Part shown: positions 896-40,139 of the stretch, in pieces
How positions within the stretch are numbered: the first letter of the stretch is position 1
Layout: every line of letters starts with the position of its first letter
Origin: Cellulophaga baltica
GTDB taxonomy: Bacteria; Bacteroidota; Bacteroidia; Flavobacteriales; Flavobacteriaceae
Assembly (NCBI RefSeq): GCF_018861125.1
Contig: NZ_JAHKQN010000026.1
Location: 1 to 52,903 of the forward strand
Direction: 5' to 3'
DNA: 52,903 nucleotides
The notes under the pieces: generated by a model
What the model was told of the DNA's origin: nothing
The model's input: only the letters and a program-made list of their open reading frames with translations
The model's database searches: none
Position numbers and translations under genes: made by a program

Positions 896-1810
896 TTATT
901 GAGTTGTGCAACGGTTACCATTGTTGTACACCGTTTTCATTTGTTCATAATATTCACTTCTATTCGCATTATCAGGAAGTCCAGCAACTTGTCCATCTCC
1001 TAATTCCATTATTATCCAATCTCCATTTTTCTTCTTTGCTACGTCCATAGTGAAGAAGTTACTTTCAATTTCTTTTGCAATATTTTTGAAGAAATCAATG
1101 TTTGGTTTTTCAGAATCATAATTTCCTTCGTCCCAATAATTATAGATTTTAACTACTTCTTTATTCAAGAATACAATTCTAAATTCTTTTGTTAATGGCA
1201 TTCCACTTTTTGAGTGGTCAGTTAGAAATTCCAATTCTTCGAACTCACGAAAAACAATTCCCTCATTCAGATAATCGCCTCGTAATTCCAAAAATCTGTC
1301 AACTATTTTTTCTACTTTAATTTTATCAGTTGCATTTGGAATAAAACAAGCGTCATTCCAATTGTGCTTTTCAGATTTCACAAAATCTTTCACAATTATC
1401 GGCTTATCTCCAAATTCATTGGTTAGTTCAATTAGATTAGCTATAGATAAATCTTTGGTCCAATTTGATTTTGGTGTTTCTCCATCAATTTTATTATAAG
1501 AATTTGGTAGATAATGGCAATGTTCATATTCAGTTGGATTATTGATTAACTTAATGTTTTTCTTTAAAAGTCCATTGTAGAATTTCTCGTAAACTTTTGG
1601 AGTCATCATCCAACCACGATAAATTCCATAATCTATAGATTCACTGTTTTTGATAAATTTTAACGCATTATTTATATTTCCATCAATTAATTCTTCAAAA
1701 CTAAAAATATTAGTTTCAAATCCATTTTCTTTAGCAGAATTGAATTCTGATTGATAGTCAGGCTCTACTATTTTATTGTCAATTACACTATCGCAAAAAA
1801 TAATTTTCAT
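896..1810 (-). CDS. ATP-grasp domain protein (DUF4343-like), cassette-borne
   Basis: This 304-residue protein reads as a compact ATP-grasp ligase-like fold. KPIIVKDFVKSEKHNW (about 136-151) supplies the nucleotide-binding Lys. EGIVFREFEEL (183-193) supplies the hinge and adenine contacts. FRIVFLNKEVV (210-220) follows, and DVAKKKNGDWIIMELGDGQ (256-274) has the metal-binding Asp/Glu. Proteins of this type are annotated only as ATP-grasp domain-containing and their substrate is unknown. It has its own spacer on each side and the same strand as the recombinase at 3143-4258. The last codons (about VYNNGNRCTTQ) lie inside a repeat site at 903-931, so the natural C-terminus may have been replaced or extended by the recombination site. 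The ATG at 1810 is the only good start; translation initiation here is not Shine-Dalgarno driven. Confidence 0.7.
   Translation of the reverse strand: MKIIFCDSVIDNKIVEPDYQSEFNSAKENGFETNIFSFEELIDGNINNALKFIKNSESIDYGIYRGWMMTPKVYEKFYNGLLKKNIKLINNPTEYEHCHYLPNSYNKIDGETPKSNWTKDLSIANLIELTNEFGDKPIIVKDFVKSEKHNWNDACFIPNATDKIKVEKIVDRFLELRGDYLNEGIVFREFEELEFLTDHSKSGMPLTKEFRIVFLNKEVVKIYNYWDEGNYDSEKPNIDFFKNIAKEIESNFFTMDVAKKKNGDWIIMELGDGQVAGLPDNANRSEYYEQMKTVYNNGNRCTTQ
903..932. repeat. Recombination-site-like repeat overlapping the ATP-grasp gene end
   Basis: GTTGTGCAAC (903-912) is followed by an eleven-base spacer beginning GGTTACCATT and then by TTGTACACC to 932. Each arm is near-palindromic (GTTG-x-CAAC type), giving both direct and inverted symmetry. 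The last codons of the ATP-grasp gene are read through this site. Confidence 0.5.
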
Positions 1811-1825
1811 TGGTTTATTCTAATG

Positions 1826-1963
1826 GTGTACAACGTTGTTGTATATGGTTTGTTGCGTGTTTTAAGCAACTAATTTAGTAAATACAAACCTAATATAAGA
1901 TCCGCGAGGATTTTCGTAAGTAGGCTATAACTAGCAATAAATTATATACGGTGTTGCCACACG
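1826..1963. repeat. Cassette-boundary-like spacer with repeated ends
   Basis: This gene-free spacer starts with GTGTACAACGTTGTTGTATA, related to the 903-932 site. It has two similar direct ends, TATATGGTTTGTTGCGTG (1842-1859) and TATACGGTGTTGCCACACG (1945-1963). Inner short stems are GTTGC/GCAAC (1852-1870) and ATCC-GCGA-GGAT (1900-1911). No ORF of note lies inside. It could be a folded attC-like site or a gene-less mini-cassette. Confidence 0.5.
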
Positions 1964-1966
1964 TTT

Positions 1967-2461
1967 TTAATCGGTTTTTTCATTCCTACTATCAATAGAT
2001 TTTCTGAGTTTATAAATCATATCATCTAATTTTATAATAATTAACTTCCCTTGTTCTTGTTTATTTTTAATTGTATTGTCTGCACAATAACTATCTAAGA
2101 GTTTGCTAATATCATTGTAATATCTATCCGAGTCAACTTCTGAGTTTTCTTTTATTAGTGTTCTATTTTCATTTATTTTAGAAATAAAATCTCTTAAAAG
2201 TCTAGCATCTTCATTGAAATCAGAACCTTTGAGAATAGATTGAGTTTGTGCTGTTGAATATTTGACAAAAACTTTTTGTATTCTTTTAGAATCGTGTAAA
2301 ATTTCAACCAAATCTGTAGTTCTTTTTTTCGATAAAACTTGATTTTTTGCGTCTTCTGCTAGTTCAGCAGATGCACGAGCTTTTTTCTCTGATTTTATTG
2401 CATAAATAGCACCAAAGATTGATGCAATAGAACCAATAACACTTATTATAGTCCAAATCAT
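1967..2461 (-). CDS. Hypothetical small membrane-anchored coiled-coil protein
   Basis: I do not recognise a family. The first 22 residues (MIWTIISVIGSIASIFGAIYA) form one hydrophobic segment. A charged, Lys/Glu-rich helix follows (about residues 24-47), then a predominantly helical domain to residue 164. The expected topology is an N-terminal inner-membrane anchor with a cytoplasmic helical body. It starts 2 bp after the stop of the YfbU-family gene, so the two are probably co-transcribed and translationally linked. Its stop codon lies 4 bp from a 10-bp sequence (1953-1962) that recurs inverted at 2998-3007 beyond the YfbU gene, so the pair looks like one inserted unit. Confidence 0.6.
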   Translation of the reverse strand: MIWTIISVIGSIASIFGAIYAIKSEKKARASAELAEDAKNQVLSKKRTTDLVEILHDSKRIQKVFVKYSTAQTQSILKGSDFNEDARLLRDFISKINENRTLIKENSEVDSDRYYNDISKLLDSYCADNTIKNKQEQGKLIIIKLDDMIYKLRKSIDSRNEKTD

Positions 2462-2463
2462 AA

Positions 2464-2976
2464 TTACCCTATTGTTTTTACTAAATCCAATAGCGTTTCT
2501 TCACTCATCTTGTATTTCACATCTTGCTCCAAGGAATTCCATTTTTGTAACATTGCTCGATATCTGCCTAAAGTATGTGAGTGACTATTAAAGTAGCCTC
2601 CATTTGACTCTTCAATTTCTTTATATCTTCCTAAATCTTGAATAAAGTATTGAGCATAAGTCATTTGTAGCGTTTCATTATTCCCGTCAAACCCAGGGAA
2701 AGCAACATTATCAGCTGTAATTTTCTTTGGTTCTTTTATGGCATTAAAACTGAATATAATTCCACGATACATATCTAAAATATCTAAAACTTCTCTGCAT
2801 TCAGCTTCTGTTAGTCCTTCGTATAAATGTTCAGTTAACCATTCATAATGTAATTCATAACCTTCTTCAATCGCTTTTCTATGAGTTGCATAATAATCTT
2901 GTTCTTCCGGATAAAGTTTTTCAAGAATCTTAAGCATATATGAAAATTTCAGTCTTTCTTTTTTATCTAATTTCAT
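2464..2976 (-). CDS. YfbU family protein
   Basis: The 170-residue product follows the pattern of Escherichia coli YfbU: an N-terminal MLKILEKLYPEE with a following helix (IEEGYELHYEWL), TEAECREVLDILDMYRGI (about 77-94), then FPGFDGNNE and GRYRAMLQKWNSLE near the C-terminus. The family is cytoplasmic and its biochemical role is not established, so no activity is assigned. YfbU-family genes occur repeatedly in accessory DNA. Here it is first in a two-gene unit with the membrane/coiled-coil gene 2 bp downstream. The unit is bracketed by the inverted 10-mers GTTGCCACAC (1953-1962) and GTGTGGCAAC (2998-3007), and the recombinase gene lies upstream on the same strand. Confidence 0.75.
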   Translation of the reverse strand: MKLDKKERLKFSYMLKILEKLYPEEQDYYATHRKAIEEGYELHYEWLTEHLYEGLTEAECREVLDILDMYRGIIFSFNAIKEPKKITADNVAFPGFDGNNETLQMTYAQYFIQDLGRYKEIEESNGGYFNSHSHTLGRYRAMLQKWNSLEQDVKYKMSEETLLDLVKTIG

Positions 2977-2997
2977 TGTATCGTAGTTTTTTTAAAT

Positions 2998-3007
2998 GTG
3001 TGGCAAC
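2998..3007. repeat. Inverted copy of the cassette-end 10-mer
   Basis: GTGTGGCAAC here is the exact reverse complement of GTTGCCACAC at 1953-1962. The two copies bracket the YfbU/membrane-protein gene pair like terminal repeats of one unit of about 1.05 kb. Confidence 0.5.
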
Positions 3008-3014
3008 TTGTTTA

Positions 3015-3070
3015 TATGCGGAAGTTTTATCCTTTTATCTTGCCTTTTTGGAGGGCTATGCGGAAGTTTT
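3015..3070. repeat. 14-bp direct repeats next to the recombinase gene (attI-like candidate)
   Basis: TATGCGGAAGTTTT occurs at 3015-3028 and again at 3057-3070, 42 bp apart start to start. An inverted CTTCCG follows at 3091-3096. They lie in the 166-bp gap between the recombinase stop and the first cargo gene, where a primary attachment site would be expected if the array grows from the recombinase end. Confidence 0.45.
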
Positions 3071-3142
3071 TGGTTTTTTACTTGTTTTAGCTTCCGTTGA
3101 AAAAAAGATGGAAATTCCTACTAAATGCAATTTAGGTATGTT

Positions 3143-4258
3143 TTATAAGTTATCAAATGGATTTTTTATTTTTCTTATACTAGTCTCACTTACATGGGTA
3201 TAGATCATTGTTGTTTTAGGGCTGCTGTGCCCTAAAAGCTCTTGAATATATCTAATATCTGTACCGTTTTCTAATAAATGAGTAGCAAAACTATGTCTCA
3301 AAGAATGTAGTGTGATTTTTTTTCGTATACCTACTTTATCTACTACATTTTTTAATACTTTTTGTGCACTAGAGCTACTGTATTGGCCACCATATTGTCC
3401 TTCAAATAAATAATTAGTTGGTTTGTATTGTTTGTAATAAACTCTTAGTAACTCTAAAAACATTTCTGATAATAATGTGTATCTATCTTTTTTTCCTTTA
3501 GCTCCTTGAATGTGAATTAACATTCTTTTGCTATCAATATCTTTCAATTTTAAATTGGTGGCTTCTCCAATTCTTAATCCGGCAGAATATATTAAGCTTA
3601 ATAATGTTTTGTGCTTCAGGTTATGGATATTATCAAAAATTTGTTTCACTTCATCAATACTTAAAACTACGGGTAATTTTTTCTCTTTTTGTGGTCGTGT
3701 TAATGCCAGTTTTTCAACTTCTATTCCTTTATAATTTAAATATTTTTTTATTCCGTTAATGCATTGATTTTGGTATGAGACTGATTTGTTTGGCTTCACG
3801 ATAAAATCATAATTGAATGACTCTATTAATCGCTTTGAATAATCGGTTGTGTTTTTAAGAGAAGAATATCGTATAAAAAAAGCAGTTACTTCAACATAGG
3901 TGTTTACGGTATTTTCACTTAGCCTTTTTTGTTGTAACCATTTTTTAAACTTTTGTAAATCATTTTTTTGAATTTCGCTAAGTTGAGGAAGTTTTAGAAG
4001 TTTAGTGGTTGTATTTTTTTCAGATGTTTCTTTTTTAATATCACTATAATCAACAAAGCAATTAACTTTTCTTAAATGATTGTATACTTTTTTAATTTCG
4101 TTTGAAGAGTGCTTTATGTAAAAAACCTTTTTTGTGTTACTCCATTTTACACCATCTAATTTTTTTAAATGAACCCTTAAATCATCATCATATTTAAAGT
4201 GAATGGCTATTTGTTTTTCGTTTTTATGTGTAAACGAAACAAGTTTTACTTCTTTCAT
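3143..4258 (-). CDS. Tyrosine recombinase/integrase (XerC/D-like), array-associated
   Basis: A complete 371-residue phage-type integrase. After an unusual N-terminal module (about 1-65, IAIHFKYDDDLRVHLKKL and VKWSNTKKVFYIKH) comes a SAM-like core-binding domain (about 95-185) and the catalytic domain. Visible active-site residues are Arg229 in AGLRIGE, Lys in GAKGKKDR (253-257), His318 and Arg321 in LHSLRHSF, His344 in LLGHSS and the Tyr353 nucleophile in MIYTHV. All are present, so the enzyme should be active. It lacks the extra helix insert typical of integron IntI proteins between the Lys and HxxR motifs. It is transcribed in the same direction as the three small genes downstream, with 166 bp holding two 14-bp direct repeats between them. 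I infer that it mobilises these genes. It could instead be a stand-alone XerD relative. Confidence 0.9.
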   Translation of the reverse strand: MKEVKLVSFTHKNEKQIAIHFKYDDDLRVHLKKLDGVKWSNTKKVFYIKHSSNEIKKVYNHLRKVNCFVDYSDIKKETSEKNTTTKLLKLPQLSEIQKNDLQKFKKWLQQKRLSENTVNTYVEVTAFFIRYSSLKNTTDYSKRLIESFNYDFIVKPNKSVSYQNQCINGIKKYLNYKGIEVEKLALTRPQKEKKLPVVLSIDEVKQIFDNIHNLKHKTLLSLIYSAGLRIGEATNLKLKDIDSKRMLIHIQGAKGKKDRYTLLSEMFLELLRVYYKQYKPTNYLFEGQYGGQYSSSSAQKVLKNVVDKVGIRKKITLHSLRHSFATHLLENGTDIRYIQELLGHSSPKTTMIYTHVSETSIRKIKNPFDNL

Positions 4259-14418: not shown

Positions 14419-15108
14419 ATGAAACTATCAAATTTAATATACGCGTTTAGCTATTTTTTAGCAATCACTTTTTTTGCCTCTTGTAATAATGATGATGACT
14501 TTACTGAAGATACTGATATGATGTCTGATACTGAAGTTGAATTTACGGGAACTTATGCACAAGTAGATCACATGGGTCGACCTGGTATAAATACTGTTTT
14601 AAGTGCTGATGATGCTACAAAAGACAGTCAAAACACAACTTTACCAGCAGATATGGGGGCAACTTTTGCTACTTCATTTGAAGATAGATTAGAAGCATAT
14701 CATGACGTTTATGCAAATTTATTAGGTGCAGACCCTGCAGATGTAAATTATGAAACTAACATTTTAGGTTTTGATGCGGCTACAATTACTGGTTATTTGG
14801 CAGCTGATGTTTTAGATATTGCTCCTAATTTACCAACAACTTATTTTAACCCAGGTACTGATAATGATGGTGATGGTAGAATATTGGTTCCAGACGGAGA
14901 CGAAGTTGGCTTAACAGGTAGAACATTACAAGATGATGTAATTGATGTATCATTAATCTTATTATTTGGTGGTGAAGAAGGTGATCGTTTTAGTGGTCAA
15001 GATACTGACGGTGATGGTGTGTCTGATTTACCAAGACTTACCTCTGACGGTGTTGCTTTAACAGCAAGTATCTCAAGTTCTTTCCCGTACTTATCAAGTC
15101 CGGAATAG
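14419..15108 (+). CDS. DUF4331-like lipoprotein (probable C-terminal half)
   Basis: The 229-residue protein has a lipoprotein signal ending FFASC (lipidated Cys22) and an Asp-rich linker (NNDDDFTEDTDMM). The region QVDHMGRPGINTVL (about 49-62) resembles the conserved C-terminal stretch of DUF4331 proteins. The remainder has acidic loops such as GTDNDGDGRILVPDGD and DTDGDGVSDLPR that could bind calcium. It should be lipid-anchored at the outer membrane. Together with the preceding gene it probably makes up the two halves of a DUF4331 system. What the pair binds or stabilises is unknown; a complex with the TonB receptor downstream is plausible. Confidence 0.7.
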   Translation: MKLSNLIYAFSYFLAITFFASCNNDDDFTEDTDMMSDTEVEFTGTYAQVDHMGRPGINTVLSADDATKDSQNTTLPADMGATFATSFEDRLEAYHDVYANLLGADPADVNYETNILGFDAATITGYLAADVLDIAPNLPTTYFNPGTDNDGDGRILVPDGDEVGLTGRTLQDDVIDVSLILLFGGEEGDRFSGQDTDGDGVSDLPRLTSDGVALTASISSSFPYLSSPE

Positions 15109-29684: not shown

Positions 29685-31496
29685 TTATTTCGTAGGTATG
29701 AAGCCATTTTCTCTTGTGTATTTTATATGATTTATGCTTTCTTTTATATCTGTTGGTGGTACTTCATTTTCAATAACAATTATTTGTTCTAAATCACTCT
29801 GATTACAGATATATCTATAGAAGTCCATTGCTAAATCATCACTAATCCTTTCTGCTCCAATATTTTTTGGCTTCTTATAAGAGACTAATGGAGAATCTAT
29901 TATTGGTACACCTATTGAATATTCTTTTTTTAATATTAGTTCTTGTAATGCTACAATGAAAGCGGAATAAATAATTGCTCTAACCCCTTTCCCAGATAGA
30001 TTTCTGTCTTCACCTGAAATTACAAAATCATTTTGCTCTTCACTATAACTGACATCAGTTAGATTTGGATAATTATAACCTTTAAGAACAGATTTTATCA
30101 CTTTTGAAAGTGGTGTTAATGATGCAGTTGATATATGCTCAAATGTTTCTTTAGAACTAGATTTAGGTATAGAGCTTTCTAGTTTTTCTTTTTCAGCTTT
30201 AAATTTTTCAAGTTGCTCAGATTTATATAAAGCACCAAGAACTATACTTTTCTTTTCATTTTGTTGGTTGATTTGTTCAATTATCAAACTCATTTCCAAG
30301 CCAACTCCTTTATCAATTTCTAGAGTGTATTTATTTATATTTTTCTCTAAATCTGAAACTTCTATAGAGATATCCTTAAATTCTTCTTTTAACATTTTTT
30401 CTGATTCAAGTAATTCTTGAATCAATGATTCTATTTTTTGTATTTCTTTACTGCAAGAATCTATTATTTTATTAATGTCTTCTATTGAACATTTTCCTTC
30501 TATTTCGCCATTACAAAGTGGGCAATTACCATTTTCAGAATGATTTTCTTCATTTAATAAAATGCTTGTTTCAATAGTCGATTTTAAGCGTGATACATCT
30601 GAATAGTAATGAGATTTTAATAAGTCTGTTCTTTTATATAATTCTTCGATTACTCTTTTACGTGATTGTCTTTTATGAAGAATGTCTAAAGTTTTTACTC
30701 TTTCACTTTCTATTTCATTGAATTTATTCTGAAGATTAGAATGGTTTTCTGTTAATTTTTCAATTAAAGAATTAGTCTCATTCAGCATCAATGATGGTTC
30801 AACTTTAAAAGTCTTTAAATCCTTAGTGTTGTCATTTATAAACTCTTTTAATATTTCTAATTTTCCTTTCCTATTTGCTATTTGGTTTTGAGAAAGGGAT
30901 TCAATTATATTACTATCATCATTTCCTGTTACAATTAATTTTAAAACATTTAATTCTTCGGTAGCTTTTGTATAATGACTAACTATTAATGATTCCTCAG
31001 TAGTGATTTTAGATTCATTAACCATTGAGAATTTTACAATATCACGATATGAAATTGGTCTAGTTTTTCCCTTTTGGTTTGTTCTAATTTTTTTACCTGT
31101 AAGATTATTTAGTTTAAGTAAAAAAGCGGAAACAGTTTGTTCATTATAGGGACTATGTTTTCTGTCAAGGATTTCGAATTCATCAGTTTCTTTAATTTTA
31201 TCTATAGATAAATTATAAAGTTTAAAATTGCCACCTTTTAAATCGCTTAATAAAGTATATGTGGTGTTTGTTGAATCAATTAATTCTAAATAGATAAAAT
31301 CATAATTTCTTGATTCTTTAATAGGTTTTGGCGGTTTTGAACCACCAAACATATAATTGAAACATTGGAAAATATATGATTTACCTACGTTTGAAGGTCC
31401 CGTAATGATATTAACGCCTCTTTTAAAAACGACATTTGCATTTTCAACTGATTTACCAATCAGTCTTAATTCTTTTATTATGAATCCCGTTTTCAT
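29685..31496 (-). CDS. ABC-three-component system ATPase, Rad50/SMC-like
   Basis: The 603-residue ATPase has Walker A GPSNVGKS (33-40). Long coiled-coil arms (about 205-300 and 335-440) flank a CPLCNGEIEGKC zinc-hook-like turn (about 328-340). A signature-type LSGKGVRAIIYSAFIVALQE and Walker B VPIIDSPLV complete the site. The Asp-Ser after the Walker B strand, in place of Asp-Glu, is typical of the DUF3732-like ATPases of ABC-3C conflict systems. It is expected to sense invading nucleic acid or a nucleoprotein event and to license the nuclease partner. Its ATG overlaps the stop of the middle component as TAATG. No phage evidence is available; a repair role is the alternative. Confidence 0.8.
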   Translation of the reverse strand: MKTGFIIKELRLIGKSVENANVVFKRGVNIITGPSNVGKSYIFQCFNYMFGGSKPPKPIKESRNYDFIYLELIDSTNTTYTLLSDLKGGNFKLYNLSIDKIKETDEFEILDRKHSPYNEQTVSAFLLKLNNLTGKKIRTNQKGKTRPISYRDIVKFSMVNESKITTEESLIVSHYTKATEELNVLKLIVTGNDDSNIIESLSQNQIANRKGKLEILKEFINDNTKDLKTFKVEPSLMLNETNSLIEKLTENHSNLQNKFNEIESERVKTLDILHKRQSRKRVIEELYKRTDLLKSHYYSDVSRLKSTIETSILLNEENHSENGNCPLCNGEIEGKCSIEDINKIIDSCSKEIQKIESLIQELLESEKMLKEEFKDISIEVSDLEKNINKYTLEIDKGVGLEMSLIIEQINQQNEKKSIVLGALYKSEQLEKFKAEKEKLESSIPKSSSKETFEHISTASLTPLSKVIKSVLKGYNYPNLTDVSYSEEQNDFVISGEDRNLSGKGVRAIIYSAFIVALQELILKKEYSIGVPIIDSPLVSYKKPKNIGAERISDDLAMDFYRYICNQSDLEQIIVIENEVPPTDIKESINHIKYTRENGFIPTK

Positions 31497-31978
31497 TATT
31501 GTAAAATTTCAATATTAAACTCGTTGTCTATCTCTGATAATTTTGGAGTCATAATGTTTTTTAATTCTTGTTTGGTGTGTTTTGAGTATTTATTAATAGC
31601 CCAATTTGCTTTTTCTTGAAGTTTGATTGAGTATAGTTCTTCAAGTGATTCAAGAAATGGCATTGCGTTTTCAGTTGCTTTATATTCTATACCATTAAAA
31701 TTATATTGCTTTTCTATTAAATTCTTTGTGATAAAAAGATTTAATCCTTTATCAATGATAGAACTTCTAACCATTATTTCACCTGATCGATAAGGTACTG
31801 CGGGATGTAGACTTTGCATTGTTTTGTCAATGTCTGCTGAATGTATAGTTAGGTAATCTAGATAAACAAGGTTTTGTAAATCAAAAGATTTAGGGAATGC
31901 TTCATTTAATATAATTAAGATTCGAAGACCAGCTTCAACACTATTATTAAATGGATTTATATTTTTTTTAGTTTCCAT
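31496..31978 (-). CDS. ABC-three-component system middle component (MC2-like)
   Basis: About 160 residues, beginning METKKNINPFNNSVEAGLRI, then ILIILNEAFPKSFDLQNLVYLD and SLHPAVPYRSGEIMVRSSII. This pattern (N-S/P-E-GLR...DLQ...DYL...SLHPA.P.R..E) is that of the middle component of ABC-3C systems, a winged-helix-like adaptor between the ATPase and the effector. I prefer the ATG at 31978 over the in-frame ATG at 31987. It gives a TAATG overlap with the nuclease gene stop, identical to the TAATG junction at the other end of this gene. Confidence 0.75.
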   Translation of the reverse strand: METKKNINPFNNSVEAGLRILIILNEAFPKSFDLQNLVYLDYLTIHSADIDKTMQSLHPAVPYRSGEIMVRSSIIDKGLNLFITKNLIEKQYNFNGIEYKATENAMPFLESLEELYSIKLQEKANWAINKYSKHTKQELKNIMTPKLSEIDNEFNIEILQ

Positions 31979-33027
31979 TATGTCCATTTGATTTTATTAT
32001 CATTAACCAATTGATGACAAATTCCTTTTTTATCATAAATAAGACTAACCTCCTTTAGTGGGTTTGAAGATATTATTGCTTTTCCTGCTTCTCTTTCTAC
32101 TTCTTTTACTTTTATAAAATTATTCGAATGGATTTCTTCCAAAATATCAATAATCCCTTCTAATATTTCATTTTGAAAATCTTCAAAGGTGTCAATAGGT
32201 AGGTTATCTCTAGTGAAATTCCTTAACTGTTCTGCGTGATGAAAACTTATTCTAGCTCTTGTAAAATGGTTTTTATAAAGTTCTTTTGAATCTAAATCTA
32301 TTACATTTTTGTAATCTTCTTTGCTTTCAGAACCGTATGCAGATAAAAGTTGATCAACGTATGTGGTTTCCGAACTTTGGATTGAACTTGGTATAGTATC
32401 GGTGTCTAATTTTTCACGCTCAGGTAGTCCACCACCAAACCTTATTAAGTGATTTGGATGCGAAATATGTTCTTTTAAAATATTCTTAGTATGAATTTTT
32501 GAGAAAATTGAAAAGTCAAAATTATTTACCCATTTTAAAAATTCTCCTTCTAATTTTATTCCACCTACAGTCGTGTCAATTTCACAATGTTTATCCCAAT
32601 TATTTACTATTGCATTTTTTAGTTCGGTTGGATTTTGAAGTAATTTTGAAAGTGAAGTTCCACAACCTTTTGGTGCAACAAAATAATATTTTCTAGGTAT
32701 TGGGTATTCTAATTTAAAAGTATAGTATAATATTTTAATAAATTCTTTATATACTTGAGCAGGCATTAATGCATTTTCATAATGTTTGCATTGAAAACAA
32801 TCCCAAGTATAGTTTGGTTTGTTTTTATCAGTTACATAGCCTACAACATCTCTTCCTTTATCTCCAGCACCTCCGAATCTTTCAGCCTCTATATATTCAG
32901 TCTTTTTTATGTCAACCCACTCTTCGATAAAATCTTCCCAGTCATCAAATGACATATGCTCAATCATCTTAAGAGGTATTATCCTCTTACCAAAATTGAC
33001 TTGATGTGATGTTTTGTAAAATGTCAT
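31978..33027 (-). CDS. ABC-three-component system effector: Mrr-like nuclease with C-terminal helical domain
   Basis: A 349-residue protein. The N-terminal part (about 25-100) shows a restriction-endonuclease-like core: DDWEDFIEEWV, then ERFGGAGDKGRDVVGYV with Asp60, and WDCFQCKHY with Gln79 and Lys81, i.e. the GxGDxGxD...QxK pattern of Mrr-type PD-(D/E)XK enzymes. A helical middle (about 150-230) and a C-terminal domain (about 240-349, FTRARISFHHAEQLRNFTRD, EVEREAGKAI) follow; the latter probably docks on the middle component. It is the first gene of the operon. It should cut DNA when activated. Catalytic residues look intact. Confidence 0.8.
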   Translation of the reverse strand: MTFYKTSHQVNFGKRIIPLKMIEHMSFDDWEDFIEEWVDIKKTEYIEAERFGGAGDKGRDVVGYVTDKNKPNYTWDCFQCKHYENALMPAQVYKEFIKILYYTFKLEYPIPRKYYFVAPKGCGTSLSKLLQNPTELKNAIVNNWDKHCEIDTTVGGIKLEGEFLKWVNNFDFSIFSKIHTKNILKEHISHPNHLIRFGGGLPEREKLDTDTIPSSIQSSETTYVDQLLSAYGSESKEDYKNVIDLDSKELYKNHFTRARISFHHAEQLRNFTRDNLPIDTFEDFQNEILEGIIDILEEIHSNNFIKVKEVEREAGKAIISSNPLKEVSLIYDKKGICHQLVNDNKIKWT

Positions 33028-33416
33028 TCGTTATTTTTTAGCTGACGTACAATGTAGATATATAGTCATCATAATCTACAATCCACATTAAATTATAAAA
33101 GTAAACAGGGGAGGGGAAGTACTTACTTTTTGTGTTTCCGAAAATAAGTGTAAAACTTTAAATTGCTTACGTATTTTGTAAGAATTATAGCTATTGTAGT
33201 CACATTTCTACAAAATGTATTGTTTGTCCGTTAAAATGCTGTTATTTACGTATTTGTCTAATGCAGTAGTGTAGCTTCTCTTTTAAGAATGAAACTAAAA
33301 TTCAAAATTGAGTTTTAATGTACTTGCTTTACACGTCTTTTTTTGTGATACTGCCGTAAATACTAGATATTGCATAAAAATAACTTAGCGCTAACTAAGT
33401 AGATAAACAAAGTAAA
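33028..33416. other. Intergenic region between the divergent ABC-3C operon and the nucleotidyltransferase fusion
   Basis: This 389-bp AT-rich gap must hold both promoters. No ORF or RNA gene is evident. A short purine tract (CAGGGGAGGGGAAG, about 33107) and small hairpins (CTTAC/GTAAG and TGTAG/CTACA between about 33165 and 33215) occur. ACTTAG-N6-CTAAGT at 33383-33400 is a small inverted repeat 17 bp before the plus-strand gene. Confidence 0.4.
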
Positions 33417-34568
33417 ATGAGTAAAAAAGTATTTGTATCTGGTTGTTATGATATGTTGCACAGTGGGCATATTGCATTTTTTAAAGAAGCATCAAGTTAT
33501 GGCGATTTGTATGTGGGTATTGGTTCTGATGCCACGGTTGATGAGCTTAAAGGAAGAAAAACAATAAATTCAGAGCAAGAACGTATTTACATGATTAATG
33601 CAATTAAGTATGTAAAACAGGCTTTTGTAAATTCAGGATCGGGTATTTTAGATTTTGAAGATGATCTTAAACAAATAAAGCCAGACTTTTTTGTTGTAAA
33701 TGAAGATGGGTATTCACCTTCAAAAAAAGAACTTTGTGATGCTTTAGGTATTGAGCTAAAAGTATTAAGCCGCATACCAGATGCAGGACTTCCTGAGCGT
33801 TCTACAACAGCAATACGCTCTGCAGGTAATTGTACGTTACCGTACAGAATTGATTTAGCCGGTACGTGGATTGATCAGCCTTATGTATCAAAATACCACC
33901 CAGGTTGGGCAATTACCTTGTCATTAGAACCGGTGATTGAGTATAATGAGCGTTGTGGTATGTCTACCTCTACACGAAATGCAGCTAAAAAAATATGGCC
34001 GTATTATTTGCCTTTAGAAAAGCCAGAAAAATTAGCCGAGATACTTTTTAAATTTGAAAACACACCAGGTTCTACCTTAATTTCTGGGGCACAAGATGCT
34101 ATTGGTATTTGTATGCCAGGTTTGGTTAGGCATTATTATGACAATGCGTATTGGCCTTTAAAATTTGAGTCTATCCATAAAGAAGAAACCCTTAAATGGT
34201 TAGAGAGTCACCTTTGTATGGCCATGTTATGGCCAAGAGAACCCGGTTTAGATTTGTTAGGTGAAACCTATATAAATACTGAAAATGTAAAGCCATTAAC
34301 CGAAGCGGCCGATGAGGTTTGGGAAGCAATTAAAGAGCGCGATTTAGAAAAGTTTGCTGCAGGATTTTCAAAATCATTTGAAGCGCAAACTAAAATGTTT
34401 CCTGAAATGGTTAACGACAGAATTAATGCTGAAATTGAGAAGTTTAAAGATAAGGCCCTTGCTTGGAAACTTGCTGGTGCAGGTGGCGGTGGTTACCTAA
34501 TTTTGGTTTCTGAAAAACCAATTGAAGGTACTATGCGCATTAATATTAGAAGAAAAGAAGCCTTGTAG
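33417..34568 (+). CDS. Cytidylyltransferase / GHMP-kinase-like fusion protein
   Basis: The 383-residue protein fuses two domains. Residues 1-about 130 are a nucleotidyltransferase of the HldE-C/TagD type: VSGCYDMLHSGHIAFF with the HxGH motif at 15-18 and RSTTAIRS. From about 138 it reads as a GHMP kinase-like fold of the HddA/fucokinase type: CTLPYRIDLAGTWID, SGAQDAIGICMPGLV and the C-terminal LAGAGGGGYLILV (motif 3). The Gly-rich phosphate loop of GHMP kinases (PxGxGLGSS) is not present between them; CGMSTSTRNAA is the closest piece. It may still make an NDP-sugar from a sugar phosphate, or have lost the kinase step. It is a single gene after a long intergenic region. Confidence 0.75.
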   Translation: MSKKVFVSGCYDMLHSGHIAFFKEASSYGDLYVGIGSDATVDELKGRKTINSEQERIYMINAIKYVKQAFVNSGSGILDFEDDLKQIKPDFFVVNEDGYSPSKKELCDALGIELKVLSRIPDAGLPERSTTAIRSAGNCTLPYRIDLAGTWIDQPYVSKYHPGWAITLSLEPVIEYNERCGMSTSTRNAAKKIWPYYLPLEKPEKLAEILFKFENTPGSTLISGAQDAIGICMPGLVRHYYDNAYWPLKFESIHKEETLKWLESHLCMAMLWPREPGLDLLGETYINTENVKPLTEAADEVWEAIKERDLEKFAAGFSKSFEAQTKMFPEMVNDRINAEIEKFKDKALAWKLAGAGGGGYLILVSEKPIEGTMRINIRRKEAL

Positions 34569-34592
34569 TATTTACTAGCAATTCGCTTAAAT

Positions 34593-34644
34593 AAAAAAAT
34601 CATTTCAAAAGCATGTAAAAACTGCTCTTGAAATGATTTTTTTT
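34593..34644. terminator. Bidirectional terminator between fusion gene and M1 peptidase
   Basis: A long stem pairs the AAAAAAATCATTTCAA arm (34593 onward) with TTGAAATGATTTTTTT (to about 34643). One mismatch lies near the loop. A/T runs on both sides let it serve both convergent genes. Confidence 0.85.
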
Positions 34645-34657
34645 GGTTTGTACTTTT

Positions 34658-36301
34658 TTAGTTTACCGCTTTATTTTCAATATAAAAGTTACGATCTACT
34701 TTAAACGTTTTTCCTTTTGTTTTTATCTTTTCTGTCTGCCATTCTGTTGTTGGCGTTAACCAAATTTCTTTATCACCAACCAAAACTTTAACAGGCATTG
34801 CAAAATTTGCCACTACGTTAGCATATTTGTAGCTAATACCTTTTTTCGAAATTTTGTATTCTAAAACAGGAATGTCTGCCGTTCTTAAATACTCTTCAAA
34901 AAATGGCGCTAGATCCATTCCTGATTTCTCACTCAAGTAGTTTTCAATTTGTGCTGTAGTAACGGTTTGGTGGTAAAAATCTTTATTTAAACCTCTTAAG
35001 ATATTTCTCCATTTTTCATCATCATTAATTACTTGACGTAGCGTGTGTAAAATATTTGCACCTTTAGAGTACATGTCTTTACTACCGCCATAATTAACAT
35101 CGTATTCACCAATAATAGGACGATCGTTATGAATGTTTTTACGCAGTCCGATTACATAATCAGCACTAGCTTCTTTTCCGTAGTAATAATCAATAAATAG
35201 ATTTTCAGAATAGGTTGTGAAACTCTCATGAATCCACATATCGGCAATATCTTTATAGGTAATATTGTTGGCAAACCACTCGTGACCAGATTCATGAATA
35301 ATGATATAATCAAACTTTAATCCCCAACCAGAACCTGATAAATCTCTACCTAAATATCCTTTTTTATATTGATTTCCGTAAGTAACAGAACTTTGGTGTT
35401 CCATACCTAAATACGGAGTTTCTACCAACTTATAACCATCTTCATAAAACGGATAAGGGCCAAACCAATGCTCAAAAGCTTTCATCATTTTTGTAGCATC
35501 TTTAAAATGTTCTTTAGCGACAGCTAAGTTGTCTCTTAAAACATAATAATCCATATCAAGTTCCCCTTTTTCACCGGCGTACTTTTCACCAAAGTGAACA
35601 TAATCAGCAATATTCACGTTGACACCATAATTATTTATTGGATTGTCAATAAACCAATTGTACGTAGTGGTAGTTTCATTTTCTTTAACCGAGGTAAGTC
35701 TTCCGTTAGAAACATCCATTAAACCTTTAGGTACTGTTACCCGTATGGCCATACTATCTACCTCGTCATACATATGATCTTTATTAGGCCACCAAACGCT
35801 GGCACCCAAACCTTGGCAAGAAGTTGCGACAAAATCATTGCCATTGTCATCTTTTTTCCATGAGAAACCACCATCCCAAGGTGCTTTAACCGCTTCTTTT
35901 GGTTTTCCCGAATAATACACAGTAACTTGGTTAAAATCACCCTTTTTCTGATGTTTAACCAATTTGATAAAATGTGCGTTTATGTTAGAATCAAATTCTA
36001 ATTCTTGCCCATCTTGCGTTACTTTTTCAATTTTTAGTGGCGGTTGCAAATCTACCTGCAACACTTGGTTTTCTTCTAATACTTCATAACGTATGGTATT
36101 GCTCCCCGAAATAAATTTCTCTTCAGGTTTTACTTCAAGGTTTAAATCGTAATAATTTAAATCCCACCAAGCACGCTCAGGCGTAATGCTTCCTCTTAAA
36201 GAATCTTGTTCGGTAAAAGTTTGTTTTTTGGTTAGTAACGCTTGTGCATTTAAGCCAAAAGTTACTAGTAATGTAATTGTAGTAATAGCTATTCTGATCA
36301 T
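34658..36301 (-). CDS. M1-family metallopeptidase (aminopeptidase)
   Basis: A 547-residue secreted peptidase. It has a signal peptide (ITTITLLVTFGLNAQA) and an N-terminal beta domain with GMEHQSSVTYG, the exopeptidase (GAMEN-like) loop that reads substrate N-termini. HESGHEWFANNITYKDIADM carries the zinc HExxH and is followed by HESFTTYSEN, supplying the third zinc ligand. It lacks the long C-terminal HEAT domain of PepN and matches the shorter M1 enzymes of Bacteroidota. It should release N-terminal amino acids from peptides in the periplasm or outside. It is downstream of the M28 gene by 16 bp, so the two exopeptidases form an operon. Confidence 0.9.
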   Translation of the reverse strand: MIRIAITTITLLVTFGLNAQALLTKKQTFTEQDSLRGSITPERAWWDLNYYDLNLEVKPEEKFISGSNTIRYEVLEENQVLQVDLQPPLKIEKVTQDGQELEFDSNINAHFIKLVKHQKKGDFNQVTVYYSGKPKEAVKAPWDGGFSWKKDDNGNDFVATSCQGLGASVWWPNKDHMYDEVDSMAIRVTVPKGLMDVSNGRLTSVKENETTTTYNWFIDNPINNYGVNVNIADYVHFGEKYAGEKGELDMDYYVLRDNLAVAKEHFKDATKMMKAFEHWFGPYPFYEDGYKLVETPYLGMEHQSSVTYGNQYKKGYLGRDLSGSGWGLKFDYIIIHESGHEWFANNITYKDIADMWIHESFTTYSENLFIDYYYGKEASADYVIGLRKNIHNDRPIIGEYDVNYGGSKDMYSKGANILHTLRQVINDDEKWRNILRGLNKDFYHQTVTTAQIENYLSEKSGMDLAPFFEEYLRTADIPVLEYKISKKGISYKYANVVANFAMPVKVLVGDKEIWLTPTTEWQTEKIKTKGKTFKVDRNFYIENKAVN

Positions 36302-36317
36302 TATAAAAAAAAATTAA

Positions 36318-37652
36318 TTAGCGCATTATAGCGTTAGGAAATACTACAGGACTTTCAAAACCATCTTCTCCAACAGCAGAAACTCCAAAGAAGAAGTTGT
36401 CAATAACAATACCATCAAGAACAAATTCGGTAACGTCACCCACAAATCTACTATTATCCCAAGTTGGTGATGTAGTATCTCTCCAATAAATTTTATAGCC
36501 AATAGCGTTTGGTACTTTACTCCATTTAAATTTAGCAGCAGGTTTAACAATTCCTCCAATTTTAACTTCTGTAGGAGCAGGAGGAGCCCAAGCTAATGAT
36601 GCTAAATTAATAGCATTTACAGCTGTAAGTTTTTTAGTGTATTCAAAATTCACGTGTTCTAAAACATCACCGTAATTAATACCATTTTCAGTTCTTACAT
36701 CTTGGTGTTGTTGGGTATAATTTTCGTGCGCTTCCATAATTCTGATTCCTGCAAAGCCTAAATCATTAAAAGGCCTGTGGTGACCTCCACGACCAAAACG
36801 ATCTAAACGATAAATCATCATCGGGTTCATTTCCGGCATGTATTTTTTTACGTTTTTATGAATGTAACGGGCTAGCTGTCGCGAAATACCATCAACTTCA
36901 CCACCATAAAAACGGCGTGCTTTACGTTGCTTTTCTGTTTCATTAGCCGGTACAGGTTCAGAAAATATTCTGAAATCACGATTGCTCGTAACGCCATCAA
37001 CCCCCGTAATGTTACCAATCATATCATTATTTAAAATACCAATAATATTCCATTTTTTTTCTTGTGCGTATTTGGCCAAACCAGCACCACCAAAAAGGCC
37101 TTGCTCTTCACCAGATAAGCCTACATAAATAATGCTATTTTCAAAAGAATGTTTTGAAAGTACTCTAGCAGCTTCAATAGTACCAGCCATACCAGTAGCA
37201 TTATCATTTGCCCCAGGCGCATCAGTAGTAAAATCCATCGTGTCACTGGCACGAGAATCAATATCACCACTCATAATAATATAATTATTCGGGTATTTTG
37301 TACCTTTTTGTATGGCAACAACATTTACCACCCAAGCATCTTTAGGTATGCGAGAACCCATATCAGTAGTCACAAAATCTTTCTGATAAAAAACATCTAA
37401 GCAATCTTTGCAATCTTTTGAGATAGTTTCAAATTCAGATTTTATCCAACGGCGTGCAGCACCAATTCCTCTAGTTTTTGAAATAGTATCGCTAAATGTG
37501 TTTCTAGTCCCGAAATTAACTAATGTAGTGACATCTTTTTTTATACGTTCAGATGAAATCGCATCAATAATATCATAAATTTTTGCATCTGATTGTTGCG
37601 CTATACAAATGCTAGTCAGCATAAATAAGCAACAAAGTAATAGTATTCTCAT
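36318..37652 (-). CDS. M28-family metallopeptidase with C-terminal Fn3-like domain
   Basis: A 444-residue exported peptidase. It has a signal peptide (ILLLCCLFMLTSICIAQ) and the M28 zinc-site segments MSGDIDSRAS, PGANDNATGMAGTIEAARVL and VGLSGEEQGLFGG. GILNNDMIGN carries a further ligand, and EAHENYTQQHQDV ends the catalytic domain. From about residue 355 there is a fibronectin-type III-like domain (PAPTEVKIGGIVKPAAKFKW, VGDVTEFVLDG). The M28 enzymes of this type are secreted aminopeptidases. The first Zn His normally before Asp is replaced in MSGDID by Gly-Asp, which deserves a structural check. It leads the M28-M1 operon. Confidence 0.87.
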   Translation of the reverse strand: MRILLLCCLFMLTSICIAQQSDAKIYDIIDAISSERIKKDVTTLVNFGTRNTFSDTISKTRGIGAARRWIKSEFETISKDCKDCLDVFYQKDFVTTDMGSRIPKDAWVVNVVAIQKGTKYPNNYIIMSGDIDSRASDTMDFTTDAPGANDNATGMAGTIEAARVLSKHSFENSIIYVGLSGEEQGLFGGAGLAKYAQEKKWNIIGILNNDMIGNITGVDGVTSNRDFRIFSEPVPANETEKQRKARRFYGGEVDGISRQLARYIHKNVKKYMPEMNPMMIYRLDRFGRGGHHRPFNDLGFAGIRIMEAHENYTQQHQDVRTENGINYGDVLEHVNFEYTKKLTAVNAINLASLAWAPPAPTEVKIGGIVKPAAKFKWSKVPNAIGYKIYWRDTTSPTWDNSRFVGDVTEFVLDGIVIDNFFFGVSAVGEDGFESPVVFPNAIMR

Positions 37653-37760
37653 AGTTTAGTTTTTGTTTCCTAAATTACGGTAACTATTATAGTTAATGTC
37701 TTAAAAAAAAGTTAACTAGTATTACCTTTCAAAGTAGCTAAAGAGCTATTTAAAATTAAA

Positions 37761-37810
37761 AAGATAAAAAAGGGAAGAACTTAATAACAAGCTCTTCCCT
37801 TTTTTATCTT
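37761..37810 (-). terminator. Terminator of the trehalose synthesis gene
   Basis: AAGATAAAAAAGGGAAGAAC (37761-37780) and GCTCTTCCCTTTTTTATCTT (37791-37810) form a nearly perfect 20-bp stem with a 10-nt loop. On the minus strand the stem's own T run serves as release signal. Confidence 0.9.
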
Positions 37811-37827
37811 ATAAACTTGATTATTAG

Positions 37828-40035
37828 TTAATCAAGAAACCTTTTCAATAACAAGCGTACATCTTTTGTGCCATCTACATAATATTTAGCAGCTGTTTTT
37901 TGCAAACCAACTTTTACAGTTACTGCAGTTTCTGGTAATTCTTGAAACATAAATTCATCAGTCCAATCATCACCAATTGCAAAAGCAAAATCGTAATCAG
38001 CTTCAGTATATACACGCATTGCGGCTCTACCTTTGTTTACGTTACTACTCTTAATTTCCATTACTTTATTTCCGTTTAATACACTCAAATCATCATTAGC
38101 AATTAAACTAGTAAGTACGGTGTTTAACTCCGTTGCTCTTTTTTGGCCAAAATCAGGATCTGTTTTTCTGTAATGCCAAGCTAGAGAGTAATTTTTCTCT
38201 TCAATAAAACTACCTGGAGTTCTATCAACAAAAGATTCTAAAACAGGATGAATTTTTTCCATCCAGTCTTTCTTAACATTTTCTAGCATTGAAAACGGTT
38301 CTCCATTTTTAGAAATCCATACCCCATGCTCAACAATCATGTTATATTTTTTAGGTAAGAACCATTTTGTAAACGTTTCTTTATCTCTACCACTTATTAA
38401 ATACATATCTGTATTTTCTTGTGAAGATATTTTGTCTAGCAATTCGTAAAGTTCTTCATCCGGACTCGCTTTTTGCGGATCGTTATGGAAGCCTGCTAAA
38501 GTCCCGTCATAATCAATAAATAATAGTCTTTTCTTAGATTTTTTATATTTTTCTTCAACTTCACTTAATAGTTTTTTAGATAATTTTCGTGAAACTTCAG
38601 TGTTATTAGCTTCTTTTTGTTCTAATAATGACGTCATAAAATCGTTCGCCCATCTTTCTACGTTATAGCGCTCTAATCGTTTTTGTAAAACACCATTACG
38701 TTCTTGTTGCTCTTCTACAGGCATTTTTATAGCTTCATCAATAGTGTCAGCAATTTGCTCAAAGTTATTAGGATTAATAAGCAGCGATTCGTTCATTTCA
38801 TTAGCAGAACCAGCCATTTCGCTTAATATTAAAACCCCGCTTTTATCGGTTCTAGTAGCAATATATTCTTTAGCTACTAAATTCATACCGTCGCGTATTG
38901 GTGTTAACCAAGCAATATCAGATGAGGTGTATAAGTCAATTAAATTATCAAAAGGCATTGATCTGTAAAAGTACCAAATAGGTGTCCAGCTCACGGTTGA
39001 AAATTCACCATTAATACGACCTACTAACTCATCAACTTCTTTCTTTAAAAGTTGGTATTGAGGTACATTACTACGTGAAGGAACGGCTAATATTATTAAA
39101 CGAACCTTTTCTTTATAATGCGGGTATTTATTTAAGAAATATTCAAAAGCATTCAAACGTTTTGCTATTCCTTTTGAATAATCTAGTCTATCAATAGAAA
39201 GTAAAAATTTAGCTTTTGGATTTGCTATTTTATGCTTGTTTAATCGTTGTTGTAATTCAGATTGATCTTTTGGTTCTCTTTGTAAATGCTCTTTAGCAGC
39301 ATCACTAAACTTTTTATAATCAATTCCCATCGGGAAAGAATCAACTTTAATAATTCTATCTTCTAAATAAATATCATTAAAACTAACTTCTAAACCAAGT
39401 AAACGCCTTACTGAGCTTAAAAAATGACGCTCATAATCGTACGTGTGGAAACCTATTAAATCAGCACCTAAAAGGCCGCTTAACACTTCTTTACGCCAAG
39501 GCAATGTTCTAAATATTTCAAAGGAAGGGAAAGGTATATGTAAAAAGAAGCCTATTGATACTTCTGGCATTGCTTCTCGTACCATTTGTGGTACTAACAT
39601 CAATTGGTAATCATGAATCCAAATTACATCATCTTCGTTAGCATTTTTAATAATAGCATCAGCAAATTTCTGATTTACTTTTTTGTAGGTATCCCAGCTA
39701 TCTAATTCAAATTCTGAGTATTGTAAAAAATAATGAAATAGAGGCCAAATTGTTCTGTTGCTAAACCCGTAATAAAAACCATCAACCTCTTCTGAAGTTA
39801 ATTTTACTTTTGATGAGCCATGTTTTGCTAAGGCTTCGTCTATATCATCAGCAAGTTCTTCAGGTATTTCTTCATCTGTAAGTCCACTCCAGCCAATCCA
39901 TAAACTATCACCGCCTGAATGAACTGATTTCATTCCTGTAGCTAAGCCACCAACGCTTGGTATTGCTTTTATGCTACCGTTATCAATTTGTAACTGAACT
40001 GGTAATCTATTTGAGATTATGATAGTTTTGCCCAT
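37828..40035 (-). CDS. otsA: Bifunctional trehalose-6-phosphate synthase/phosphatase (OtsA-OtsB fusion)
   Basis: A 735-residue cytoplasmic enzyme. Residues 1-about 465 are a GT20 synthase: NRLPVQLQ and VGGLATGM near the start, VIWIHDYQLMLVPQMVR, LSIDRLDYSKGIAKRL, and DGMNLVAKEYIA in the UDP-glucose site. Residues about 495-735 are a HAD phosphatase: LLFIDYDGTLAGF (DxDGT), YLISGRDKETF, and FAIGDDWTDEFMF. It therefore makes trehalose from UDP-glucose and glucose-6-phosphate in one chain. This gives stress protection or carbon storage. It is divergent from the GH15 gene, 104 bp away, so the two share a control region. Confidence 0.95.
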   Translation of the reverse strand: MGKTIIISNRLPVQLQIDNGSIKAIPSVGGLATGMKSVHSGGDSLWIGWSGLTDEEIPEELADDIDEALAKHGSSKVKLTSEEVDGFYYGFSNRTIWPLFHYFLQYSEFELDSWDTYKKVNQKFADAIIKNANEDDVIWIHDYQLMLVPQMVREAMPEVSIGFFLHIPFPSFEIFRTLPWRKEVLSGLLGADLIGFHTYDYERHFLSSVRRLLGLEVSFNDIYLEDRIIKVDSFPMGIDYKKFSDAAKEHLQREPKDQSELQQRLNKHKIANPKAKFLLSIDRLDYSKGIAKRLNAFEYFLNKYPHYKEKVRLIILAVPSRSNVPQYQLLKKEVDELVGRINGEFSTVSWTPIWYFYRSMPFDNLIDLYTSSDIAWLTPIRDGMNLVAKEYIATRTDKSGVLILSEMAGSANEMNESLLINPNNFEQIADTIDEAIKMPVEEQQERNGVLQKRLERYNVERWANDFMTSLLEQKEANNTEVSRKLSKKLLSEVEEKYKKSKKRLLFIDYDGTLAGFHNDPQKASPDEELYELLDKISSQENTDMYLISGRDKETFTKWFLPKKYNMIVEHGVWISKNGEPFSMLENVKKDWMEKIHPVLESFVDRTPGSFIEEKNYSLAWHYRKTDPDFGQKRATELNTVLTSLIANDDLSVLNGNKVMEIKSSNVNKGRAAMRVYTEADYDFAFAIGDDWTDEFMFQELPETAVTVKVGLQKTAAKYYVDGTKDVRLLLKRFLD

Positions 40036-40139
40036 AATGTGGTTCCTTTTGGAGTTTTTTAGATTTATTTTTTCTAAATTTCGTGAAAAAGAAAAGCAAA
40101 AACAATAATTTAATCTTTTTGAGTTAGCATTTTATTGAT

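Follow-up and report, generated by a model that had tools for sequence, protein, structure and literature searches.

An integron-like cassette platform in Cellulophaga baltica and other flavobacteria, apparently served by a Xer-like recombinase lacking the IntI-specific insert

The stretch of DNA analysed here (the window) comprises positions 1 to 52,903 of contig NZ_JAHKQN010000026.1 of the flavobacterium Cellulophaga baltica (assembly GCF_018861125.1). Its first 4.3 kb contain a tyrosine recombinase gene and, downstream on the same strand, small genes followed by ~140-bp spacers (Table 1). We read this region as the part nearest to attI of a chromosomal cassette platform, one that would function in the manner of an integron and form a separate lineage beside IntI, and give this reading a probability of about 0.87. 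The system appears to have the architecture of an integron, yet its recombinase scores and aligns outside IntI. Sequence comparison provides the evidence, namely the sites and their one-way arrays, the complementary cassette ends, the stem pairing, the C/GTT junctions, the attI-like position, the co-location with one recombinase clade, and the missing IntI insert.

In the mechanism proposed, the recombinase gene lies beside an attI-like site with its junction at 3008/3007. A cassette would comprise one short gene, or a pair of genes, and a single attC-like site, an imperfect hairpin of ~140 nt, at its 3′ end. Cassettes would be inserted at the attI-like site one after another, in a single orientation. 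A free cassette would be a circle, the recombinase would cut at the GTT of attI and of attC, and the substrate at attC would be a folded single strand, with new cassettes entering at attI. The cassette genes would give the host accessory functions or a benefit. We infer that this recombinase acts on the sites, and that it does so on folded single strands.

The spacer of the window matches 20 other places in its own genome at 74-91% identity (E 3e-13 or better), which cluster on few contigs and often at contig ends. A covariance model (R1) was built on 86 aligned sites, the window's among them, and found 42 matches at E up to 0.1 in this genome, spread across 16 stretches that include the window; the site at 1827-1967, itself in the training set, scores 143.7 bits. 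A 21-base piece of the site matches at least 119 stretches, and in the 119 selected in this way a profile made from the own-genome copies found 472 sites, in 117 of them. Neighbouring sites are co-oriented in 355/355 pairs, with a median gap of 781 bp. By size, 330 gaps could be used: the longest open reading frame (ORF) is shorter than 60 aa in 35 of them, and in the other 295 it shares the strand of the site 288 times and lies on the opposite strand 7 times. Arrays of cassettes in a single orientation, mostly with one small ORF each, are what an integron would present.

In a sample of 120 family genomes, each from a different genus, 107 carry sites; a sample of 296 genomes from across the phylum has them in 55. 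The counts per genome are lower bounds, from up to 27 (family) or 11 (phylum) scored candidates. Judged by record title, almost every named relative carrying the site is a flavobacterium. Sites of a second size class, ~205 nt long, occur in the window's own genome (L484 5583-5787, L490 10198-10403, L421 5655-5860 and 6684-6888, L497 3141-3343). Several of the 119 stretches hold a single copy, as might be expected of dispersed intergenic repeats (REP- or MITE-like) that lie between genes by chance. This explanation is contradicted by the one-way arrays, and by the cassette-end complementarity, the junctions and the recombinase at the array head described below; it was rejected on these grounds, and we regard its probability as negligible.

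The bases after the GTT ending one site are the reverse complement of the bases before the AAC opening the next site. In the window, GTTGCCACAC at 3007 pairs with GTGTGGCAAC at 1962-1953, and GTTGTACACC at 1834 pairs with GGTGTACAAC at 932-923, the two ends of cassette 2 being complementary at 10/10 bases with its site cut by an insertion sequence (IS) after 919. The comparison was made on 260 of the 355 neighbouring pairs, those with cores fitting a fixed pattern, in which positions 1-3 match by construction. Positions 4-8 after GTT are fully complementary to the R'' of the next site, which belongs to the same cassette, in 216/260 cases, compared to 16/323 within one site, 8/234 with the previous site and 7/190 with the site two further on. 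Agreement per base is ~0.9 (0.30-0.59 in shuffles) and reaches position 14, with 0.70-0.87 at positions 12-14 (shuffled 0.42-0.60), while position 11 is a fixed mismatch (1% match). The mismatch at 11 with continued pairing at 12-14 is at most suggestive of extrahelical bases and of the use of one strand only. The complementary ends are those of a cassette rather than those of a site, which is expected if cassettes move as circles. The pattern resembles that of integron cassettes, in which both halves would come from one circle opened at GTT on insertion.

In 150 cassettes sampled from 238, the minimum-energy fold pairs the R arms in 113/150 in the circle form and in 25/150 in the linear array form. 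A stem drawn by hand on the 86 aligned sites consists of AAC/GTT, GTATAT/ATATAC and TTGC/GCAA with a terminal hairpin. Standard pairs make up 89.3% of this stem, a share that is 82.6% in shuffles and drops to 34-45% on sliding one side. Two-sided changes fill 123 cells, against 39.7 in shuffles, and occur in 14/21 stem pairs, including 5/6 pairs of the L arm. These compensatory changes support a folded hairpin. By comparison, the sites carry the parts of an attC: AAC/GTT boxes, complementary R''/R', and paired L arms in the folded strand.

Cassettes appear to have moved. A comparison of 545 cassettes yielded 69 pairs with similarity along most of the length; the neighbours differ in 34 of these pairs, include a shared one in 13 and are not comparable in 22, and several identical pairs are the same DNA taken in twice. 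Twenty pairs were inspected in alignment, three of which gave no GTT. Bases were counted in register, because outer-part identities near 0-10% proved to be artefacts of free end gaps. In nine pairs picked by hand from the 69, the bodies are 99.8-100% identical in five, 88-96% identical in three and of different length in one. Inside the junctions of all nine, 20/20 bases agree at the left GTT and 19-20/20 before the right one, and outside them the agreement falls to 5-18/20 on the left and 3-15/20 after GTT on the right. Beyond the junctions the agreement continues for at least one further base (C) to the left and three (GTT) to the right, which places the break inside C-G-T-T. The downstream site, too, is 99-100% identical in the five near-identical pairs and therefore appears to travel with its cassette. 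Examples come from Polaribacter Hel1_85, where the copies are on two contigs, Lacinutrix mariniflava, where both are in a single array, and P. filamentus, where they are ~488 kb apart, and a 1.19-kb Winogradskyella cassette is shared between species at 86% with other neighbours.

The arrays are associated with one group of recombinases. A homologue of the window enzyme at E 1e-40 or better is present in 85 of the 120 family genomes, and sites are present in 83 of these 85 (counted from two lists). We examined 98 recombinase neighbourhoods (97 homologues and the window, up to 8 kb on each side), which contain 192 sites at 57 of the recombinases; 191/192 point away from the gene. The array lies downstream in the direction of the gene at 48 loci, and upstream and divergent at 9. 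The start of cassette 1 could be placed from the R'' of the first site, with at least 6/7 bases, at 52 of the 57 loci, and falls within 160 bp of the recombinase at 41/52 (11.3 expected). These positions give a site adjoining the integrase, as attI does. The start typically follows ATATAACCA or a palindrome such as ATAAACACACTAGTGTGTTTAT, an attI-like site. In the window it is 7/7 complementary to the R'' at 1962-1953 and lies 135 bp past the stop codon. Palindromes of ~20 bp (e.g. ATAAACACACTAGTGTGTTTAT) stand just before the cassette-1 junction at L345, L352, L359, L367, L369 and L394; they are possibly recombinase binding sites or an operator.

Control loci had flanks of ~1.5 kb, and the matched figure for the homologues is a whole site no more than 1.5 kb from the gene at 36/98. 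The site model matched at 0/20 true-IntI loci (73 kb, flanks ~1.5 kb) and at 0/24 loci of XerC/D-like or other tyrosine recombinases (87 kb, flanks ~1.5 kb).

Several points weigh against a cassette platform run by this recombinase. RNAalifold found no pair in the raw 86-site alignment, and, taken alone, the window's spacer has a fold no stronger than that of its shuffled versions (z -1.00 and -1.56, with z -0.49 for 880-960), so that the case for the fold rests on comparison; the stem, moreover, was drawn on the same alignment on which it was scored, which favours it. The nine cassette pairs were hand-picked, each lies within one genome (seven genomes in all), and not all are near-identical. 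In L171/L324, L226/L245 and L232/L313 a gene is shared and the site is not, which simple cassette transfer does not explain, and L374 is a tandem copy of two cassettes. One site (L405) is on the wrong side of its recombinase. No site is in reach at 41 of the 98 neighbourhoods; 25 of these run off the contig within 1.5 kb on one side, and 16 have at least 1.5 kb on both sides. Sites also occur in 24 of the 35 genomes that lack a close recombinase, where they may be relics or the sites of another enzyme. The complete genome G071 is such a case: at least 23 sites on one strand form a one-way run from 1459076 to 1492681, and the best match to the recombinase in this genome has 31% identity.

These last two observations, together with the XerC/D-like genes in the window's own genome, are what would be expected if the cassette ends are real but are moved in trans by host XerC/XerD or another recombinase, the gene beside them being a frequent passenger. 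Against this stand the orientation of 191/192 sites away from the recombinase, with the first cassette mostly starting beside it, and the absence of any site within ~1.5 kb at the 24 XerC/D-like or other recombinase loci. The direction of the gene also follows the recombinase clade, eight divergent rows in the tree described below falling into two groups. In a further genome, G102, a recombinase fragment with 57% identity is retained 3.4 kb upstream of the array, on the strand of the array. We consider movement in trans to be very unlikely. A recombinase fragment in G019 was rejected as a decayed array head, being at the wrong end of its sites.

An earlier note on this DNA, made from the letters alone, had proposed a separate lineage of gene-cassette capture in Bacteroidota, with mobilisation as an inference, and had suggested a search with a covariance model. 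That search gave many copies between small ORFs, in arrays headed by recombinase homologues; this supports the lineage, and the footprints at C/GTT in the nine chosen pairs agree with the mobilisation. The same note held that sites occurring independently of such a recombinase would speak against it. At other recombinases this did not happen (0/20 and 0/24, against 36/98), and in 24 of 35 genomes it partly did.

The recombinase matches Pfam PF00589 at 6.1e-41, and R229, K254, H318, R321, H344 and Y353, which we take to be the catalytic set, are conserved, as had been noted. The earlier note was also right that the enzyme has an N-terminal module of its own and lacks the IntI-specific insert; the module has ~70 residues and precedes the XerA-like core. 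The alignment of the enzyme with IntI4 breaks at residues 296/297 of the query and 204/246 of IntI4, leaving 41 IntI4 residues (205-245) without a counterpart, and the alignment of nine chosen array recombinases has the same I2 gap. The missing residues coincide in position with the additional domain or I2 helix, around patch III, which passages of PMC9668308, PMC7790495 and PMC4792948 treat as defining for integron integrases. Most members of the recombinase family have the extra N-terminal module.

It could be supposed that this is an ordinary IntI integron overlooked by annotation, given that TIGR02249 matches the window enzyme at 196.4 bits and that NCBI names its plasmid relatives 'site-specific tyrosine recombinase/integron integrase'. 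That score is below the curated cut-off of 265, which is exceeded in 0/120 family genomes and in 84/296 phylum genomes, all but one of these from other classes. Only the cut-off and the place of the gap were used, because loose scores match 119/120 family genomes and 14/14 controls. Among the TIGR02249 matches listed for the family, the alignments break at the insert, ending by model position 201 or starting at 236 or later. A quick tree, with Shimodaira-Hasegawa-like approximate likelihood-ratio (SH-aLRT) support only and an unsure root (three Xer rows as outgroup, one with a very long branch), places 20 IntI rows on one side of a branch (97) and the 92 others together (98); six of the 98 recombinase rows were excluded for stops or length. 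GTTRRRY, the R box of the IntI type, is found in only 28 of 416 R' boxes here, and none of the sites occurs at the 20 IntI loci. We therefore rejected a plain IntI integron, on the missing I2, the TIGR02249 score and the position outside the IntI rows, as highly improbable. Three genomes from other classes of the phylum (G145, G157, G211) have an IntI above cut-off, a window-like recombinase and site-model matches, and therefore the two systems can apparently share a cell.

The enzyme also scores below the curated Xer values. It reaches 209.9 bits with XerA (NF040815; curated 220) and 164.9 and 174.2 bits with XerC and XerD (curated 335 and 330), and separate XerC/D-like genes, at 31% identity, are present in its own genome. 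The sole other close homologue there is a second family recombinase at G000:C2:8657-9649 (L271, L421), with 40% identity, an in-frame stop and three downstream sites. Many plasmids (H9-H25, mostly Acinetobacter) carry a recombinase 54.8% identical to residues 145-371 of the window's enzyme, called TnpF in one record.

A more serious alternative is that the recombinase acts on ordinary double-stranded, dif-like sites at C/GTT, and that the hairpin serves termination, mRNA protection or a similar purpose. Several attI regions carry palindromes, as do the double-stranded sites of this enzyme class. The enzyme also lacks the I2 helix, which is held in passages of PMC7790495 and PMC4792948 to be necessary for single-strand attC recombination. 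The comparisons point the other way: arms ~100 bp apart co-vary, with two-sided changes in 5/6 L pairs, and the outer R arms correspond only when both belong to one cassette, a feature for which a double-stranded core site would have no use. We put the probability of double-strand recombination at roughly one in four, and favour recombination of folded cassettes. If so, this may well be a second, widespread kind of integron, in which a Xer-like recombinase that never acquired I2 recombines folded single-stranded cassettes. It would be either a sister lineage from before I2 or an independent invention, with other parts of the enzyme or longer R arms replacing I2; we lean towards this view, with less assurance than towards the platform itself.

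The layout of the locus is given in Table 1. The gene set of the earlier note (ATP-grasp, membrane coiled coil, YfbU) stands as to strand and order, and Pfam identifies the R2K ATP-grasp and YfbU genes; the coiled-coil ORF at 1967-2461 had no match in protein family searches. Only 2 bp separate the YfbU gene from the coiled-coil gene, and both belong to one cassette. A cassette boundary between them was rejected, as there is one complete site (1827-1967). The repeats said to separate the genes are thus real at that site and not between these two genes. They had also been called foldable, for which the single copy gives no more than its shuffles, and which the 86 copies compared and the circle form do support. 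Upstream of the recombinase is a gene at 5932-4379, provisionally labelled FAD.

Table 1. Features in the first 4.3 kb of the window
Feature	Position	Strand	Details
Tyrosine recombinase, 371 aa	3143-4258	minus	XerA-like core ~98-364; N-terminal module of ~70 residues; without IntI I2 insert
attI-like region, recombinase stop to cassette 1	3008-3142	minus	Ends in TATAAACAA followed by GTT; junction 3008/3007
28-bp repeat, two imperfect copies, inside attI-like region	3015-3042, 3057-3084		Copies contain TATGCGGAAGTTTT
Cassette 1	1835-3007	minus	From GTTGCCACAC (3007) to last base before next GTT (1835); YfbU and coiled-coil genes and own site
YfbU-family gene, 170 aa, first in cassette 1	2464-2976	minus	Pfam PF03887, 3.5e-39
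Second gene of cassette 1, 164 aa, coiled-coil membrane-type	1967-2461	minus	ORF; label from the earlier note
attC-like site (~140-bp spacer)	1827-1967	minus	R'' 1962-1953; R' GTT 1834-1832
Cassette 2	919-1834	minus	Starts with GTTGTACACC at 1834; own R'' GGTGTACAAC at 932-923; carries R2K ATP-grasp gene
R2K-clade ATP-grasp ORF, 304 aa	896-1810	minus	Pfam 8.1e-30; last codons cross site remnant and IS end
IS1182-family element, partial, inside second site	1-918	plus	Transposase ORF 1-846, cut by window start

The stretch 903-932, earlier taken as a repeat site, is half a site broken by the IS1182-family element. The R'' half occupies 932-923; four bases come next (922-919), the IS end GTAACCGTTGCACAAC begins at 918, and the R2K frame runs into the element. 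The transposase ORF matches NF033551 at 1.1e-55 and 189.5 bits, below the curated 270 for a protein that is cut; the window starts at the contig start, and the element extends past it. Five copies or relics were found in the genome by similarity, the window's included (L538, L539, L540, L541, L532), and in 5/5 the IS end GTAACCGTTGCACAAC joins a site half at the same base, four after AAC. The same junction is present in one same-genus genome (G419). Further IS-site contexts (L156, L398, L402) came from a search pattern that itself required the junction. The identical base across copies therefore makes this element seem a site-seeking insertion sequence, in the way that IS1111-type elements target attC.

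The locus was compared in related genomes. Seventeen same-genus genomes have the neighbouring gene, of which eight were compared over 11-19 kb each. A recombinase with 47% identity and a one-way array are present in one of them (G428). In G412, G420 and G419 there are sites and no such recombinase, and G421 has one weak site match; no sites were found in the compared 11-19-kb stretches of G427, G413 and G417. The locus thus appears to vary among same-genus genomes, as is expected of a platform that comes and goes, and the variation in content for which the earlier note had asked is present.

Outside chromosomes, a mobilizable Flagellimonas plasmid (NZ_CP092416.1, L443, 10811-13724) carries a divergent short family recombinase and one cassette-like unit. 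The unit consists of a dihydrofolate-reductase-family protein and a site, with erm(F) between recombinase and unit and a Tn3 transposase beside them. Plasmid pPP2 of Persicobacter psychrovividus (L445) has 24 kb of genes, all on one strand and all 'hypothetical protein', with 13 site-model matches. Two of its protein accessions each occur twice, a sign of duplicated cassettes, here outside Flavobacteriales. The lytic Polaribacter phage P12002L (L498) has ten site-model matches (E up to 0.09) at 30898-40221 and 14498-14636; the nine in 30898-40221 are on the strand opposite nearly all genes, and the one at 39504-39714 contains an annotated small gene.

If this reading is correct, bacteria have a second way to collect and shuffle genes, apparently run by a Xer-like recombinase. 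An integron architecture with an enzyme lacking I2 would provide a comparison case for the origin of integrons, for which the lack of intermediates is described in part of PMC7790495 as an obstacle to testing. The scale is considerable: within one family, 107 of the 120 genera sampled have sites, none of them with an IntI above the curated score. If the sites work, they would amount to a large, uncounted pool of mobile genes, including the plasmid and lytic-phage cases. Since few R' boxes fit GTTRRRY, the sites would probably escape tools built on that motif. No description of these sites or this recombinase as a cassette system was found among the papers listed in the literature searched, whose coverage leaves out most subscription papers and all bioRxiv preprints, so that an earlier description may exist. 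A broad survey, as given in part of PMC9024848, lists one complete integron in Bacteroidetes proper, in Salinibacter, which contrasts with the frequent true IntI in other classes of the phylum (84/296).

Xer enzymes resolve chromosome dimers at the dif site. The system described here differs from XerA, XerH and XerCD in its many hairpin sites in arrays and in the extra N-terminal module of most members. It differs from IntI integrons (IntI, attI and attC; TIGR02249) in an enzyme without I2 that groups outside the IntI rows, in an R' box that is mostly not GTTRRRY, in complementarity to position 14 with a fixed mismatch at 11, in sites of ~140 nt with conserved sequence, and in a recombinase that points towards the array in most loci. 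In this last respect the 'inverted' integrons of Treponema are alike, as the integrase is transcribed towards attI in the direction of the cassettes (PMC3607928, in part). The shared direction of genes and recombinase, pointed out in the earlier note as the reverse of a class 1 integron, is indeed seen here, but is not unique to it, and the family also has divergent members. The Treponema systems differ in having an IntI, by the naming in that source, and an attC of 63-68 bp in T. denticola and T. vincentii and 115-132 in other species. A further likeness, from a flavobacterial phage, is the attC cluster of P12002L: two attC sites were tested according to passages of PMC9892861, of which attC2 was recombined by IntI1, and the ten R1 matches given above may or may not include the tested sites.

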